Source: Pelotomaculum schinkii (GTDB lineage: Bacteria; Bacillota; Desulfotomaculia; Desulfotomaculales; Pelotomaculaceae). Taken from it: a DNA stretch of 64,000 nt. A program made the translations under genes and the position numbers. The stretch lies in contig NZ_QFGA01000001.1 in NCBI RefSeq assembly GCF_004369205.1, positions 62,001 to 126,000 on the forward strand, written 5' to 3'. This document shows, piece after piece, positions 10,440 through 44,795 of the stretch. Position 1 is the first letter of the stretch. The number at the start of each line of letters is the position of its first letter. Under the pieces are notes generated by a model. The model did no database searches, had not been told where the DNA came from, and saw only the letters and a list, made by a program, of their open reading frames with translations.

Positions 10440-10712
10440 GGTATAGTGTCAAAGCGATGACCGGGAAAAGTAAACGCATATGTCTGCGGGCAGGGAGGGG
10501 AGGCCACGACTGAAAGTCTTCCTACGAAGACAGGCGGTGAAAAACACCCGGGAGCGGCCCCCGAAAGTGACTGGCTTATGATTAGGCGGGCACGGAGACC
10601 ACCGTTACCGGTATGAAAGGGATAAACTTAAAGTTTTCCGAGCAAGGGTGGCACCACGGGCTAAACAATCCGTCCCTCGCAATGCTTGCGCATGGCCAGG
10701 GACGGTTTTTAT
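10440..10712 (+). promoter_or_regulatory. T-box riboswitch leader of hisS-aspS
   Basis: A leader of about 270 bases that reads uncharged tRNA and controls termination. The T-box core AAGGGTGGCACCACGG lies at 10644-10659. It is followed by an intrinsic terminator with the perfect stem CCGTCCCT (10670-10677) / AGGGACGG (10698-10705) and a T run. A distal stem I loop of the GGTGAAAAACACC type is visible at about 10535-10548. The bulge TGGC (10649-10652) should pair with a tRNA ending GCCA. That fits discriminator G (tRNA-Asp), not the C73 of tRNA-His. A GAC triplet at 10569-10571 is a possible specifier, but I could not fold stem I with confidence. Confidence 0.9.
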
Positions 10713-13959: not shown

Positions 13960-14166
13960 TGATGAAGATGTAAAGCCCTACTATGTACGTGAAAACCTTG
14001 AAGTTTTTTCCAACACATTTACAAAGGGAGTCCGGTTCTCTGGTTGTAGCTTGTATGCCTCCTTCGTTGAGGAAACAAAAATCATCCAGGAGGACACCCA
14101 CCTGTTACAGCAGGTTCAAACTTTTGGGCGTCACGGCATCGGTGGGGTTTCTACGAGTTACAACGA
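13960..14166 (+). ncRNA. ssrS: Probable 6S RNA
   Basis: No plausible protein is encoded here, and the position just after aspS matches that of bsrA (6S-1) in Bacillus as I recall it. The sequence can form the long, interrupted rod expected for 6S. The 5' segment GTGAAAACC pairs with the 3' segment GGTTTCTAC. A terminal arm pairs GCCTCCT with AGGAGG(A)C. A small hairpin ACCTG-TTACAG-CAGGT sits on the 3' side of the central bulge, as known for 6S. 6S RNA binds the main sigma-factor form of RNA polymerase. The exact ends are uncertain, and a covariance-model search would settle it. Confidence 0.55.
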
Positions 14167-41078: not shown

Positions 41079-42782
41079 GTGGATCTTTTAAGGCAGAAGA
41101 GGCTGGTAAATCTTTTTATCCTGTTAATAGTTTGTTTTTTAGCGTTAGCGGGGCGGCTATGGTATGTCCAGGTAAGGCAGGGCGCCCTGTATTCCGGTCT
41201 GGCCCTGGAACAGGTGAGTCGCTGGGTCCCCTTGGAGGAAACAGCCAGGGGCGAAATTTTGGACCGGAATTTAATACCCTTAACCGGAACAAAAGAAGAA
41301 AACAGAATTATTATTTTCCCCGACGCTGTGGGCGACAAAGCAGAGGTCTCCCGCGGTCTGGCCGAAATCCTGGGGATTGACACTGCTCTTGTCTCGGGTT
41401 ATCTGCAGGGAGAGCCCTGTACTCTACCCTTTCTTCCTACGCCTGTGCAGGCCTCTTCCATTCAAAACAGGGGCTGGACAGGCGTGATGGTCTTTCCGGT
41501 GAAGTTTCGTTATGGGGACCGCCAGCTGGCCGCACAAGTCATCGGCCATGTGGGGAAGATTTCTTCCTGGCAGGAATTTGTGGACCTTTCGAAACAGAGC
41601 AGAAAGTTGTACCATTTCGGTGACATGGTCGGGAAAGCCGGCCTGGAAAAATATTATGAAGGAGCCTTAAAAGGCTCCTGGCCGCAGAAAGCTGTCCGGG
41701 TATTTGCAGACGCCCGGGGCAACCTTTTGGGCGGGCCGGGTTTTTTAGTTGATGAAAGGGCTGGGGACAGCGGCCGGCAGGATCTGGTGCTTACTTTGGA
41801 TGCCCGGATCCAAGAGATTGTAGAGGACGTTATGGACAGGAAGGTTGGTAAAGGCGCGGTAGTGGTGATGGAAGCCGGTTCAGGTGATATCCTGGCTTTG
41901 GCCAGCCGCCCCGGATTTAATCCGGAGCATCTTGAGGACAATGGCGCTTTAGCCGGCGGCAATTATTTTGACCACTGTACTGCTCTATATCAACCCGGTT
42001 CCATATTTAAGATTGTGGTTGCCACCGCCGCCCTTGAGGAAGGAATTTTTACCCCCGCCAGCCGTTTTGAGTGTACAGGGGAAAAGGACCAGTTGGTGCC
42101 CTGCTGGAAGAAGGAAGGTCATGGGGAACTTGATTTCAGGCAGGCTTTTGCCGAGTCCTGCAACCCGGTTTTTGCCAGGGTTGGCTTGGAATTAGGGGCA
42201 GGCAAAGTAATTGAGTATGCCAGGCGCCTGGGATTAGATAACCAGTCCATAGGTGGTTACCCGGCGCCAGCCGACCCCCGTCAGGATTTAAACCTTATAG
42301 CGGCTCCCTATAACCTGGCGGGTTGCAGTGTGGGCCAGGGTCCTGTCCTGGTCACCCCGATCCAGATAGCTGCCATGACCAATGCTATTCTTACGGATGG
42401 AATGTACCAGGAGCCTCGCCTGGTAAAGGAGATTCGTAACGGCACAGGAAAAGGTGAACAGGTGGCCCCGCCGGAGAAAGTTAGAGCAATGTCCCCGTCG
42501 ACAGCCGGGGTGATGCGCTCGCTTCTGGAGGAAGTTACCGCCAAGGGTTCCGGCCAGGAAGCTATGGTTCCTGTAAACGGCAGCGCCGGCAAGACGGGTT
42601 CGGCTCAGATTGCGAACAATGAAGGGCTGGTAAACGCCTGGTTTACAGGTTACGCTCCGCTTACACAATCCCGCTATATCATAACTGTTCTCGTTGAGGA
42701 TGGCGAGAGCGGCAGTAAATCGGCGGCTCCCGTATTCAAGGAGATCATGGAGCAAATATTGGCGCTGCCTGATACTTTTTAA
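41079..42782 (+). CDS. Penicillin-binding protein, class B transpeptidase
   Basis: A 567-residue cell-wall transpeptidase with one N-terminal membrane helix (LVNLFILLIVCFLALAGRLW, about 7-26), a dimerisation region, and a penicillin-binding domain. It shows the active-site serine tetrad in PGSIFKI (about 307-310), the SxN motif SCN (about 365) and KTGSAQ (about 505). It resembles the PBP2/FtsI or SpoVD-like group but lacks PASTA domains. Start GTG 41079. It is 61 bases after the U32 gene and is closed by the terminator at 42831. Confidence 0.9.
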   Translation: MDLLRQKRLVNLFILLIVCFLALAGRLWYVQVRQGALYSGLALEQVSRWVPLEETARGEILDRNLIPLTGTKEENRIIIFPDAVGDKAEVSRGLAEILGIDTALVSGYLQGEPCTLPFLPTPVQASSIQNRGWTGVMVFPVKFRYGDRQLAAQVIGHVGKISSWQEFVDLSKQSRKLYHFGDMVGKAGLEKYYEGALKGSWPQKAVRVFADARGNLLGGPGFLVDERAGDSGRQDLVLTLDARIQEIVEDVMDRKVGKGAVVVMEAGSGDILALASRPGFNPEHLEDNGALAGGNYFDHCTALYQPGSIFKIVVATAALEEGIFTPASRFECTGEKDQLVPCWKKEGHGELDFRQAFAESCNPVFARVGLELGAGKVIEYARRLGLDNQSIGGYPAPADPRQDLNLIAAPYNLAGCSVGQGPVLVTPIQIAAMTNAILTDGMYQEPRLVKEIRNGTGKGEQVAPPEKVRAMSPSTAGVMRSLLEEVTAKGSGQEAMVPVNGSAGKTGSAQIANNEGLVNAWFTGYAPLTQSRYIITVLVEDGESGSKSAAPVFKEIMEQILALPDTF

Positions 42783-42830: not shown

Positions 42831-42853
42831 AAAAAGCCCTCATGGGGCTTTTT
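42831..42853. terminator. Bidirectional terminator
   Basis: Perfect stem AAAAAGCCC / GGGCTTTTT with a 5-base loop. It ends both the penicillin-binding protein gene and the minus-strand glutaredoxin-like gene, whose stop codon abuts it. Confidence 0.85.
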
Positions 42854-43087
42854 TTATGTGATGAGCTTATCTAATTTGTTCTTATCAAATCCTACCACAG
42901 CCTGGCTTCCCACTAAGATAGTAGGAACGGCCATACGGCCAGTTTTTTTAATCATTTCATCCCTGGCCTTTTCGTCTGCGGCAACATTTAATTCCGTGTA
43001 TTTTACTCCTCTTTGTGAAAGAAACTCTTTCACGTGGCTGCAATGAGGTCAGGTAGGAGTGGTATAAACAGTAACATTATTTTCCAT
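42854..43087 (-). CDS. Glutaredoxin-like selenoprotein (YruB type), in-frame TGA
   Basis: Reading the minus strand from ATG 43087 (GGAGGA upstream, good spacing) gives a 77-residue glutaredoxin/NrdH-like protein, MENNVTVYTTPT-U-PHCSHVKEF..., ending at TAA 42854-42856. Codon 13 is TGA (43049-43051), exactly where the first cysteine of the CPxC redox motif belongs; Cys 16 is intact. The cis-Pro region MAVPTILVG and the ending VVGFDKNKLDKLI are family-typical. A hairpin GTGAAAG-AGTTT-CTTTCAC starts 15 bases after the TGA, the distance expected of a bacterial SECIS. I therefore call it selenocysteine rather than a nonsense mutation. Confidence 0.85.
43023..43041 (-). promoter_or_regulatory. Candidate bacterial SECIS hairpin
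   Basis: On the minus strand, the 7-base perfect stem GTGAAAG / CTTTCAC encloses the loop AGTTT. The apical loop begins 22 bases after the in-frame TGA at 43051-43049. SelB-dependent SECIS elements of bacteria lie in this position inside the coding region. Confidence 0.65.
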
Positions 43088-43322
43088 TGTTATCCTCCAG
43101 TTGTTTTTTTTTAGTATTAGCAATGGTCAAAGAAGTATACACTGTTCCAGGATATACCCCCTGTTTCAGATCTTCAGGGCCGATACTTCCCTTGCAAAGA
43201 AGACTAACGGAACGACGGGAGTTGGTGTTTGATGTTATACCCCGTTTTTGGCTGTAACCATATATCTTGATCCCCCATATCATGAAATAAATGTATGCAG
43301 AAGGAATAGAAGGAGTTTAATA
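43088..43322. other. Noncoding gap before exopolysaccharide cluster
   Basis: About 235 bases. A minus-strand frame of 68 codons (43077-43283) ends over the ribosome site of the selenoprotein gene and could be the remnant of an upstream gene, but I do not recognise it. No confident promoter for the exopolysaccharide operon was found. Confidence 0.35.
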
Positions 43323-44795
43323 ATGGTTGAAGAGAGGGCAGAAGCAGCTAGGGTAAATAAGCCGGTTTTAATCGTTGGGGCTGGTGTGGCGGGTGGAGTA
43401 GTGGCAGAAATCCTGACCAAAAGACAAAACAGCGATTATAAGCCTGTTGGCTTCGTGGACGACGACATAAGTAAGCAAAGGCAAAGCATACATGGTTTAC
43501 CTGTCTTAGGATGCCGCAAAGACATCCCCACCCTTGTTAACCGATATAACATCAGCGAGATTATTATTGCTATACCCTCCGCAGCGGGGCGGGTAATCAG
43601 CCAGATTGTTGAAATCAGTCAGACGAGCAAAGCGCGGCTAAAGATATTACCTGGTTTTTATGACTTCATAACTGGAAGGATAGGAATAGGTCATATTCGG
43701 GACATCGAGATGAATGACCTTCTTTTGCGGGAGCCGGTGTCCCTGGATATAGGAAAAATTGCACAGTATTTAACAGGTCAGAATGTGCTGATTACTGGAG
43801 CGGGTGGTTCCATAGGTTCTGAATTGTGCCTTCAAGTCGCTAAATTTTCACCTGGAGAGCTTATTTTACTGGGGCGTGGAGAAAACAGCATATATGAAAT
43901 CGAGTCAAAATTAAAAGAAAAGTTTCCAGGTTTATGTTTTAAAACAGAAATTGCTGATATTAAAGACAGTGTTCGCATGAAAAAAATATTTGATAAATAC
44001 CGCCCAAAAGTAGCATATCACGCTGCTGCTCACAAACATGTCCGTTTTATGGAGAAATTTCCTGGCGAAGCGGTAAAGAATAATATTATTGGAACTCAAA
44101 TTGTAGCTGAAGCAGCTTATCTGGCTGGAACTGATATATTTGTCATGCTTTCCACAGACAAAGCAGTAAATCCTACCAGTATCATGGGCGCAACGAAGCG
44201 TGTGGCGGAAATGGTTATTCAGGGGATGAATGCCAGGGGTGGAACTCGTTATGTCGCTGTCCGTTTTGGCAATGTTTTGGGAAGCAGGGGGAGTGTTATC
44301 CCTTTGTTTAAAAGACAAATTGCAAGGGGTGGCCCGTTAACAATAACACATCCGGATATGGTGCGTTATTTTATGACTACGCTGGAGGCAGCGCAACTTG
44401 TTATCCAGGCCGGTGTAATGGCAAAAGGCGGAGAAATCTTTGTTTTAGATATGGGCCAGCCTGTTAAGATTCTCGATTTAGCTAAAAAACTTATAAGGTT
44501 ATCGGGCTACGAGCCTGAAAAAGATATCAAGTTACTTTTTACTGGAATCTCCCCGGGAGAAAAACTGGTAGAACAGCTGCTTGCAGAAAATGAAAAGCCC
44601 ATACCCACCAGTCATCAACGTATTTTTGCTGTTAGTGGTTGCAAGCAGGACTCCGCCAAAGTTGATGCTTTTATGAATACCATAACAAACCCGGAGTTTT
44701 CATTTCAAGAAGAAAAAGTAATTGATTTATTGCAAGAAGTATTACCTGGCTTTAGAAAAGCAAGTAGTTTTTTGGGGATGGTGTCTGCTGAATGA
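43323..44795 (+). CDS. Nucleotide-sugar dehydratase/epimerase, CapD/FlaA1 type
   Basis: A 490-residue soluble enzyme. An N-terminal CoA-binding-like Rossmann domain (VLIVGAGVAGGVVAEIL, about 15-31) is followed by an extended SDR domain with VLITGAGGSIGSELC (about 157-171) and the active region MLSTDKAVNPTSIMGATKR. The usual Tyr of YxxxK is Met here, as in PglF/FlaA1/CapD dehydratases of UDP-GlcNAc. The four N-terminal membrane helices found in most large relatives are missing. ATG 43323 follows AGAAGGAG. It opens the exopolysaccharide cluster and overlaps the next gene by 4 bases. Confidence 0.9.
   Translation: MVEERAEAARVNKPVLIVGAGVAGGVVAEILTKRQNSDYKPVGFVDDDISKQRQSIHGLPVLGCRKDIPTLVNRYNISEIIIAIPSAAGRVISQIVEISQTSKARLKILPGFYDFITGRIGIGHIRDIEMNDLLLREPVSLDIGKIAQYLTGQNVLITGAGGSIGSELCLQVAKFSPGELILLGRGENSIYEIESKLKEKFPGLCFKTEIADIKDSVRMKKIFDKYRPKVAYHAAAHKHVRFMEKFPGEAVKNNIIGTQIVAEAAYLAGTDIFVMLSTDKAVNPTSIMGATKRVAEMVIQGMNARGGTRYVAVRFGNVLGSRGSVIPLFKRQIARGGPLTITHPDMVRYFMTTLEAAQLVIQAGVMAKGGEIFVLDMGQPVKILDLAKKLIRLSGYEPEKDIKLLFTGISPGEKLVEQLLAENEKPIPTSHQRIFAVSGCKQDSAKVDAFMNTITNPEFSFQEEKVIDLLQEVLPGFRKASSFLGMVSAE

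Follow-up and report, generated by a model that had tools for sequence, protein, structure and literature searches.

Known Selenocysteine Glutaredoxins

Glutaredoxins with selenocysteine (Sec) in a UPxC active site are already known and have been characterised biochemically, and the kind of gene considered here is not, that is, a new one. Sec-glutaredoxin was listed for the Sargasso Sea in 2005 (PMC1088965), and for Moorella thermoacetica, Geobacter sulfurreducens, and Alkaliphilus metalliredigenes in 2006 (PMC1794560). The selenoprotein glutaredoxin, as defined by a UxxC motif, is now counted as an experimentally verified family (PMC13188914). Of PDB sequences, the nearest to the protein described below is Grx1 of Clostridium (Alkaliphilus) oremlandii (7C10, 7C12), at 53% identity over 72 amino acids. 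This Grx1 (PDB 7C10, 7C12, 7C13) is natively a selenoprotein, and its active site is of the form U(or C)PXC, residue 13 being catalytic and Cys 16 resolving (PMC7642778). A U13C/C16S mutant has been described as well (PMC4479559), and the protein has been proposed to reduce a Sec-containing methionine sulfoxide reductase A (Sec-MsrA). Work on the same Grx1 by Kim et al. (2011, Mol Microbiol) is referred to here as cited in PMC4333827 and PMC4479559.

The window, i.e., the whole stretch of DNA that was analysed, consists of 64,000 nucleotides of Pelotomaculum schinkii (contig NZ_QFGA01000001.1, positions 62,001 to 126,000). The glutaredoxin that it appears to encode resembles C. oremlandii Grx1 in possessing a predicted Sec13 within a U13-P-H-C16 motif, with the same residue numbers, the same fold, and a similar length. 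It differs as regards the proposed partner, Sec-MsrA, as the MsrA of the window's genome is of the Cys type. The Sec-glutaredoxins of Moorella, Geobacter, Alkaliphilus, and the Sargasso Sea are set alongside by description, i.e., as TGA/Sec glutaredoxins, with Moorella also being one of the selenoprotein-using Bacillota; the glutaredoxin of a Thermanaeromonas, which is placed with Moorella's family, is 51% identical to that of the window (locus L084). One open-access paper in which both ‘Pelotomaculum’ and ‘selenoprotein’ occur names only positions of selenium-metabolism genes.

As read from its sequence, the Pelotomaculum gene almost certainly belongs to the glutaredoxin/YruB family and functions as a bacterial selenoprotein gene, one in which UGA at codon 13 would be read as Sec via SelB and a hairpin. 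This is the best explanation because the reading frame is intact, the TGA is conserved, both the frame and the hairpin codons are under selection, and the full Sec machinery is present.

The Gene and Its Family

A preliminary description of this DNA had claimed that a simple scan for open reading frames misses a gene here, that reading through one TGA yields a complete protein of 77 residues, and that a ribosome site, start, stop, and shared terminator are all in place. Each of these claims was borne out. The plain list of open reading frames lacks the glutaredoxin gene at 42854-43087, an omission now corrected, and the minus strand, from 43087 to 42854, runs from ATG via TGA at codon 13 to a TAA at 42856-42854, giving a 77-residue product with the active-site context TTPT-U-PHC. 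The features of the gene are as follows:

42854-43087, minus strand: coding sequence of the predicted selenocysteine glutaredoxin, 77 aa, TGA at codon 13 read as Sec (from profile match, conserved TGA, and downstream frame)
43049-43051, minus strand: in-frame TGA, the predicted Sec codon (Sec13; from alignment of homologous loci)
43040-43051, minus strand: predicted redox motif U-P-H-C (Sec13, resolving Cys16)
43094-43098, minus strand: ribosome binding site GGAGG, 6 nt 5' of the ATG
42831-42853, bidirectional: terminator hairpin, common to the convergent penicillin-binding protein (PBP) gene

The terminator hairpin is of 9 bp and is flanked by A/T, with equal folding seen in 4 of 200 shuffles. 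It lies 3' of the glutaredoxin stop and is positioned such that it could serve the convergent PBP gene too. A scan for consensus promoters found nothing on the strand of the glutaredoxin gene. Elsewhere in the window are a 6S RNA (13972-14152, plus strand; Rfam RF00013, 104.8 bits) and a T-box leader (10448-10680, plus strand; RF00230, just over the gathering score).

The read-through protein matches the glutaredoxin profile PF00462 over positions 1-58 of 60 (E=3.8e-20; 72.3 bits versus a gathering score of 22.9) and, over nearly its full length, the YruB family profile TIGR02196 (99.6 bits versus a curated cut-off of 88.55); the reading frame therefore is not a product of chance. The earlier family label of ‘YruB/NrdH-like’ is right, with the match to YruB over its cut-off and that to NrdH (TIGR02194), at 52 bits, under that profile's curated cut-off of 85.75. 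The protein otherwise is distinguished from YruB-family proteins by many of its more distant homologues having Cys at the position of the window's predicted Sec. The UXX-star (seleno)proteins (NF041212, NF041114, NF041211) are related Sec-containing glutaredoxin-like proteins, but the window's protein scores short of the curated cut-off of all three, and narrowly so with NF041212 (64.8 versus 66 bits).

Selenocysteine Machinery

The genome searched is of 4.44 Mb in 8 contigs and is 100% complete. Genes selA, selB, selC, and selD, all predicted in the preliminary description to lie elsewhere in this genome, are indeed found, and the observation that it had held would count against Sec, i.e., no selB/selC, did not occur. 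Genes selA and selB are adjacent (C1:632059-635229), and tRNA-Sec (selC) is found at C1:569016, with anticodon TCA and 68.9 bits versus a threshold of 47 bits. Gene selD (C1:1112651-1113571; L015:1400-1700) contains a single in-frame TGA close to the start, because of which SelD itself probably is also a selenoprotein.

Among the genomes carrying a TGA copy of the glutaredoxin (next section), SelA is over its cut-off in 48 of 51, with the three others (G017, G085, G100) being 64-84% complete. SelA is found, though, in 135 of the 150 genomes of the search set, and its co-occurrence with a TGA copy therefore is, on its own, weak evidence. One genome lacking a SelA match (G075) has a weak, more distant TGA match (E 1.8e-5).

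Conservation of the TGA Codon

The search for relatives covered 150 genomes, i.e., the window's own plus 149 relatives, with copies taken as strong at E<=1e-20. At that threshold a TGA copy is present in 51 of the 150, the window's own included (50 others), and a copy without the stop in two. The nearest named homologues are from Pelotomaculum and other Desulfotomaculaceae, and the Sec form prevails in the genome's family as well as in much of its order. As aligned, the homologous loci have TGA in 36 distinct cases and a Cys codon in 20, which is in keeping with the earlier claim that U replaces the first Cys of CPxC. Some genomes have several copies, with two strong TGA copies in one (G012) and one strong plus two weaker copies in another (G020).

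The lack of a gene at this point in the plain list of open reading frames is what would be seen also given a decaying pseudogene or a sequencing error, that is, if this TGA were a real stop and the frame downstream of it dead. Fifty other genomes, however, have TGA at this codon, so the TGA is not a sequencing error. Selection was computed on 32 TGA copies over the region following the TGA, with the hairpin excluded for pN/pS, and mean pN is 0.19 versus a pS of 0.75; the downstream frame therefore is not dead. Purifying selection, as judged from these copies, maintains the amino-acid frame downstream of the TGA. Relatives with TGA followed by a scrambled frame, another outcome named beforehand as contrary to a Sec reading, were not seen, TGA relatives instead retaining the frame. 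With ribosome site, stop, and terminator intact as well, the original argument against decay stands, and pseudogene or error is virtually excluded.

The Predicted SECIS Hairpin

Downstream of the TGA are the following:

43015-43033, minus strand: candidate SECIS hairpin GUGAAAG-AGUUU-CUUUCAC, 7 bp, 5-nt apical loop
43045-43048, minus strand: possible outer helix, 5' side, CCUC, pairing with GAGG at 43011-43008 (in this form not conserved among relatives)
43008-43011, minus strand: possible outer helix, 3' side, GAGG

The hairpin corresponds to codons 19-24, its loop lying 22 nt, and the start of its stem 15 nt, after the UGA, the latter being where a 7-bp hairpin had been claimed to begin. A 2026 review gives as constraints on bacterial SECIS elements (bSECIS) a loop of 3-9 nt, a stem of 4-16 bp, a G within the first two nucleotides of the loop, commonly with G or U after it, a UGA-to-loop distance of 16-37 nt, and an energy of <= -7.5 kcal/mol (PMC13188914). 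The window's hairpin agrees with all four of the model constraints quoted there; its apical loop, AGUUU, has G second and then U, and the predicted folding energy is -8.6 kcal/mol (33-nt region).

As a single sequence the hairpin is mildly unusual only, with equal folding in 9% of synonymous-codon shuffles (p 0.09; z-score -1.3), and evidence for it comes instead from conservation across relatives. Codons 19-24 are the gene's top window for synonymous conservation, a level which 1.8% of column shuffles reach. V19=GTG and E21=GAG are found in 32 of 32 TGA copies, while most comparable codons elsewhere vary, and the hairpin's pairs are kept in 91.8% of cells versus 34-71% for slid helices. Two-sided changes in the helix are seen in 2 cells only, and RNAalifold, given 35 sequences, chose another weak helix; support for the hairpin therefore comes from fixed codon choice and model fit, not from covariation. 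No curated Rfam family matched the hairpin, even with a permissive search threshold.

From a different perspective, the hairpin might be viewed as a mere by-product of the conserved VKEFLS peptide, with the Sec-directing element located elsewhere or not needed. TGA copies show almost no variation in that peptide, and the helix, as noted, is not the one which RNAalifold recovers, both of which fit with such a by-product. Synonymous choices in the hairpin codons, however, are far more fixed than those in the rest of the gene. In addition, a distant TGA glutaredoxin (L088:519-749, plus strand), with a different peptide (AKRFFA), still has a 7-bp hairpin, made up of different bases (GGCAAAG-AGGUU-CUUUGCC) and one nucleotide out of register with the others. 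The by-product explanation consequently is to be viewed as very improbable.

In seven relatives (L039, L043, L044, L045, L047, L067, L084) the hairpin has one unpaired base on its 5' strand (GG-U-GAAAG...CUUUCCC, with C for U in L067), whereas in the window's copy the stem is fully paired. The SECIS element of E. coli fdhF has a bulged U, and the unpaired U of these relatives recalls the bulged U of SelB-binding hairpins.

The TGA could be read, too, as some other amino acid, i.e., as Trp or Cys, by an altered code or by near-cognate read-through that does without SelB. Homologues do have Cys at this position, and read-through of this kind would require no hairpin. The genome nevertheless possesses the whole Sec pathway, and TGA copies conserve the hairpin, whereas most Cys homologues, which are also the more distant ones, lack it. 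Reading of the TGA as an amino acid other than Sec thus is exceedingly improbable.

Predicted Function

Upon meeting UGA at codon 13, a ribosome would be supplied with Sec-tRNA(Sec) by SelB attached to the predicted SECIS hairpin, 22 nt past the UGA. UGA would thereby be read as Sec, and the full, 77-residue thioredoxin-fold protein would result. Sec13 would stand in for the attacking Cys of CPxC, its selenolate attacking a target protein at a disulfide or sulfenic acid, with Cys16 then resolving the intermediate as an Se-S bond. That bond would be re-reduced, probably by an enzyme of the thioredoxin-reductase type or by a non-glutathione thiol. The likely function is that of a Sec-boosted thiol-disulfide reductase; Sec insertion, catalytic cycle, reductant, and target alike are inferred, with the roles of Sec13 and Cys16 taken from the family. 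Two families of gamma-glutamylcysteine ligase, PF04262 and PF04107, have no match in the genome, and two thioredoxin reductases, at C1:485044 and C1:756735, are over cut-off, so reduction without glutathione is favoured.

The protein's main job might instead be reduction of MsrA rather than general thiol-disulfide exchange. Such a role has been proposed for C. oremlandii Grx1 with its Sec-MsrA, and the Pelotomaculum genome does have one MsrA. This MsrA is of the Cys form (GCFWC), however, so that the tandem-Sec pair is absent, and its gene and that of the glutaredoxin are not neighbours. Specialisation on MsrA accordingly is unlikely, and pairing with it is possible but not indicated. Service to a Sec-MsrA, as in C. 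oremlandii, is weakened by this MsrA being Cys-type.

Gene context was considered as well. The immediate neighbours, both outside of the system proper, are:

41079-42782, plus strand: convergent neighbour, penicillin-binding protein transpeptidase
43248-44795, plus strand: divergent neighbour, nucleotide-sugar epimerase/dehydratase (Polysacc_synt_2; true start may be further in)

The glutaredoxin gene lies beside the PBP gene in several Desulfotomaculaceae contigs and keeps other company elsewhere. A search across relatives' contigs found no conserved neighbourhood that would name a partner, neighbours being cell-wall and sugar-nucleotide genes. Given this variable company, context therefore supplies no substrate.

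Selenocysteine Versus Cysteine

On a tree built from few columns, with many of its forks unresolved, Sec copies group strongly with Sec and Cys with Cys (6 changes, where shuffles give about 17). Found inside of a well-supported Sec group is a copy from Pelotomaculum MAG PtaU1.Bin035 (L033:1498-1725, plus strand, the same as L056:3001-3228) which has TGT instead of TGA while retaining an intact SECIS hairpin. The simplest reading, and a probable one, is of a recent Sec-to-Cys change with leftover SECIS. More broadly, one may tentatively picture a syntroph that makes no glutathione and whose Sec-glutaredoxin is fed by thioredoxin reductase, in a lineage still switching between Sec and Cys, with the TGT copy being a SECIS ‘fossil’ from just after such a switch; this fuller picture is plausible, if somewhat short of an even chance. 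A close Cys relative that has kept the hairpin provides, together with the Sec form, a natural pair for testing both the benefit of Sec and the rate at which a SECIS decays once it is unneeded.
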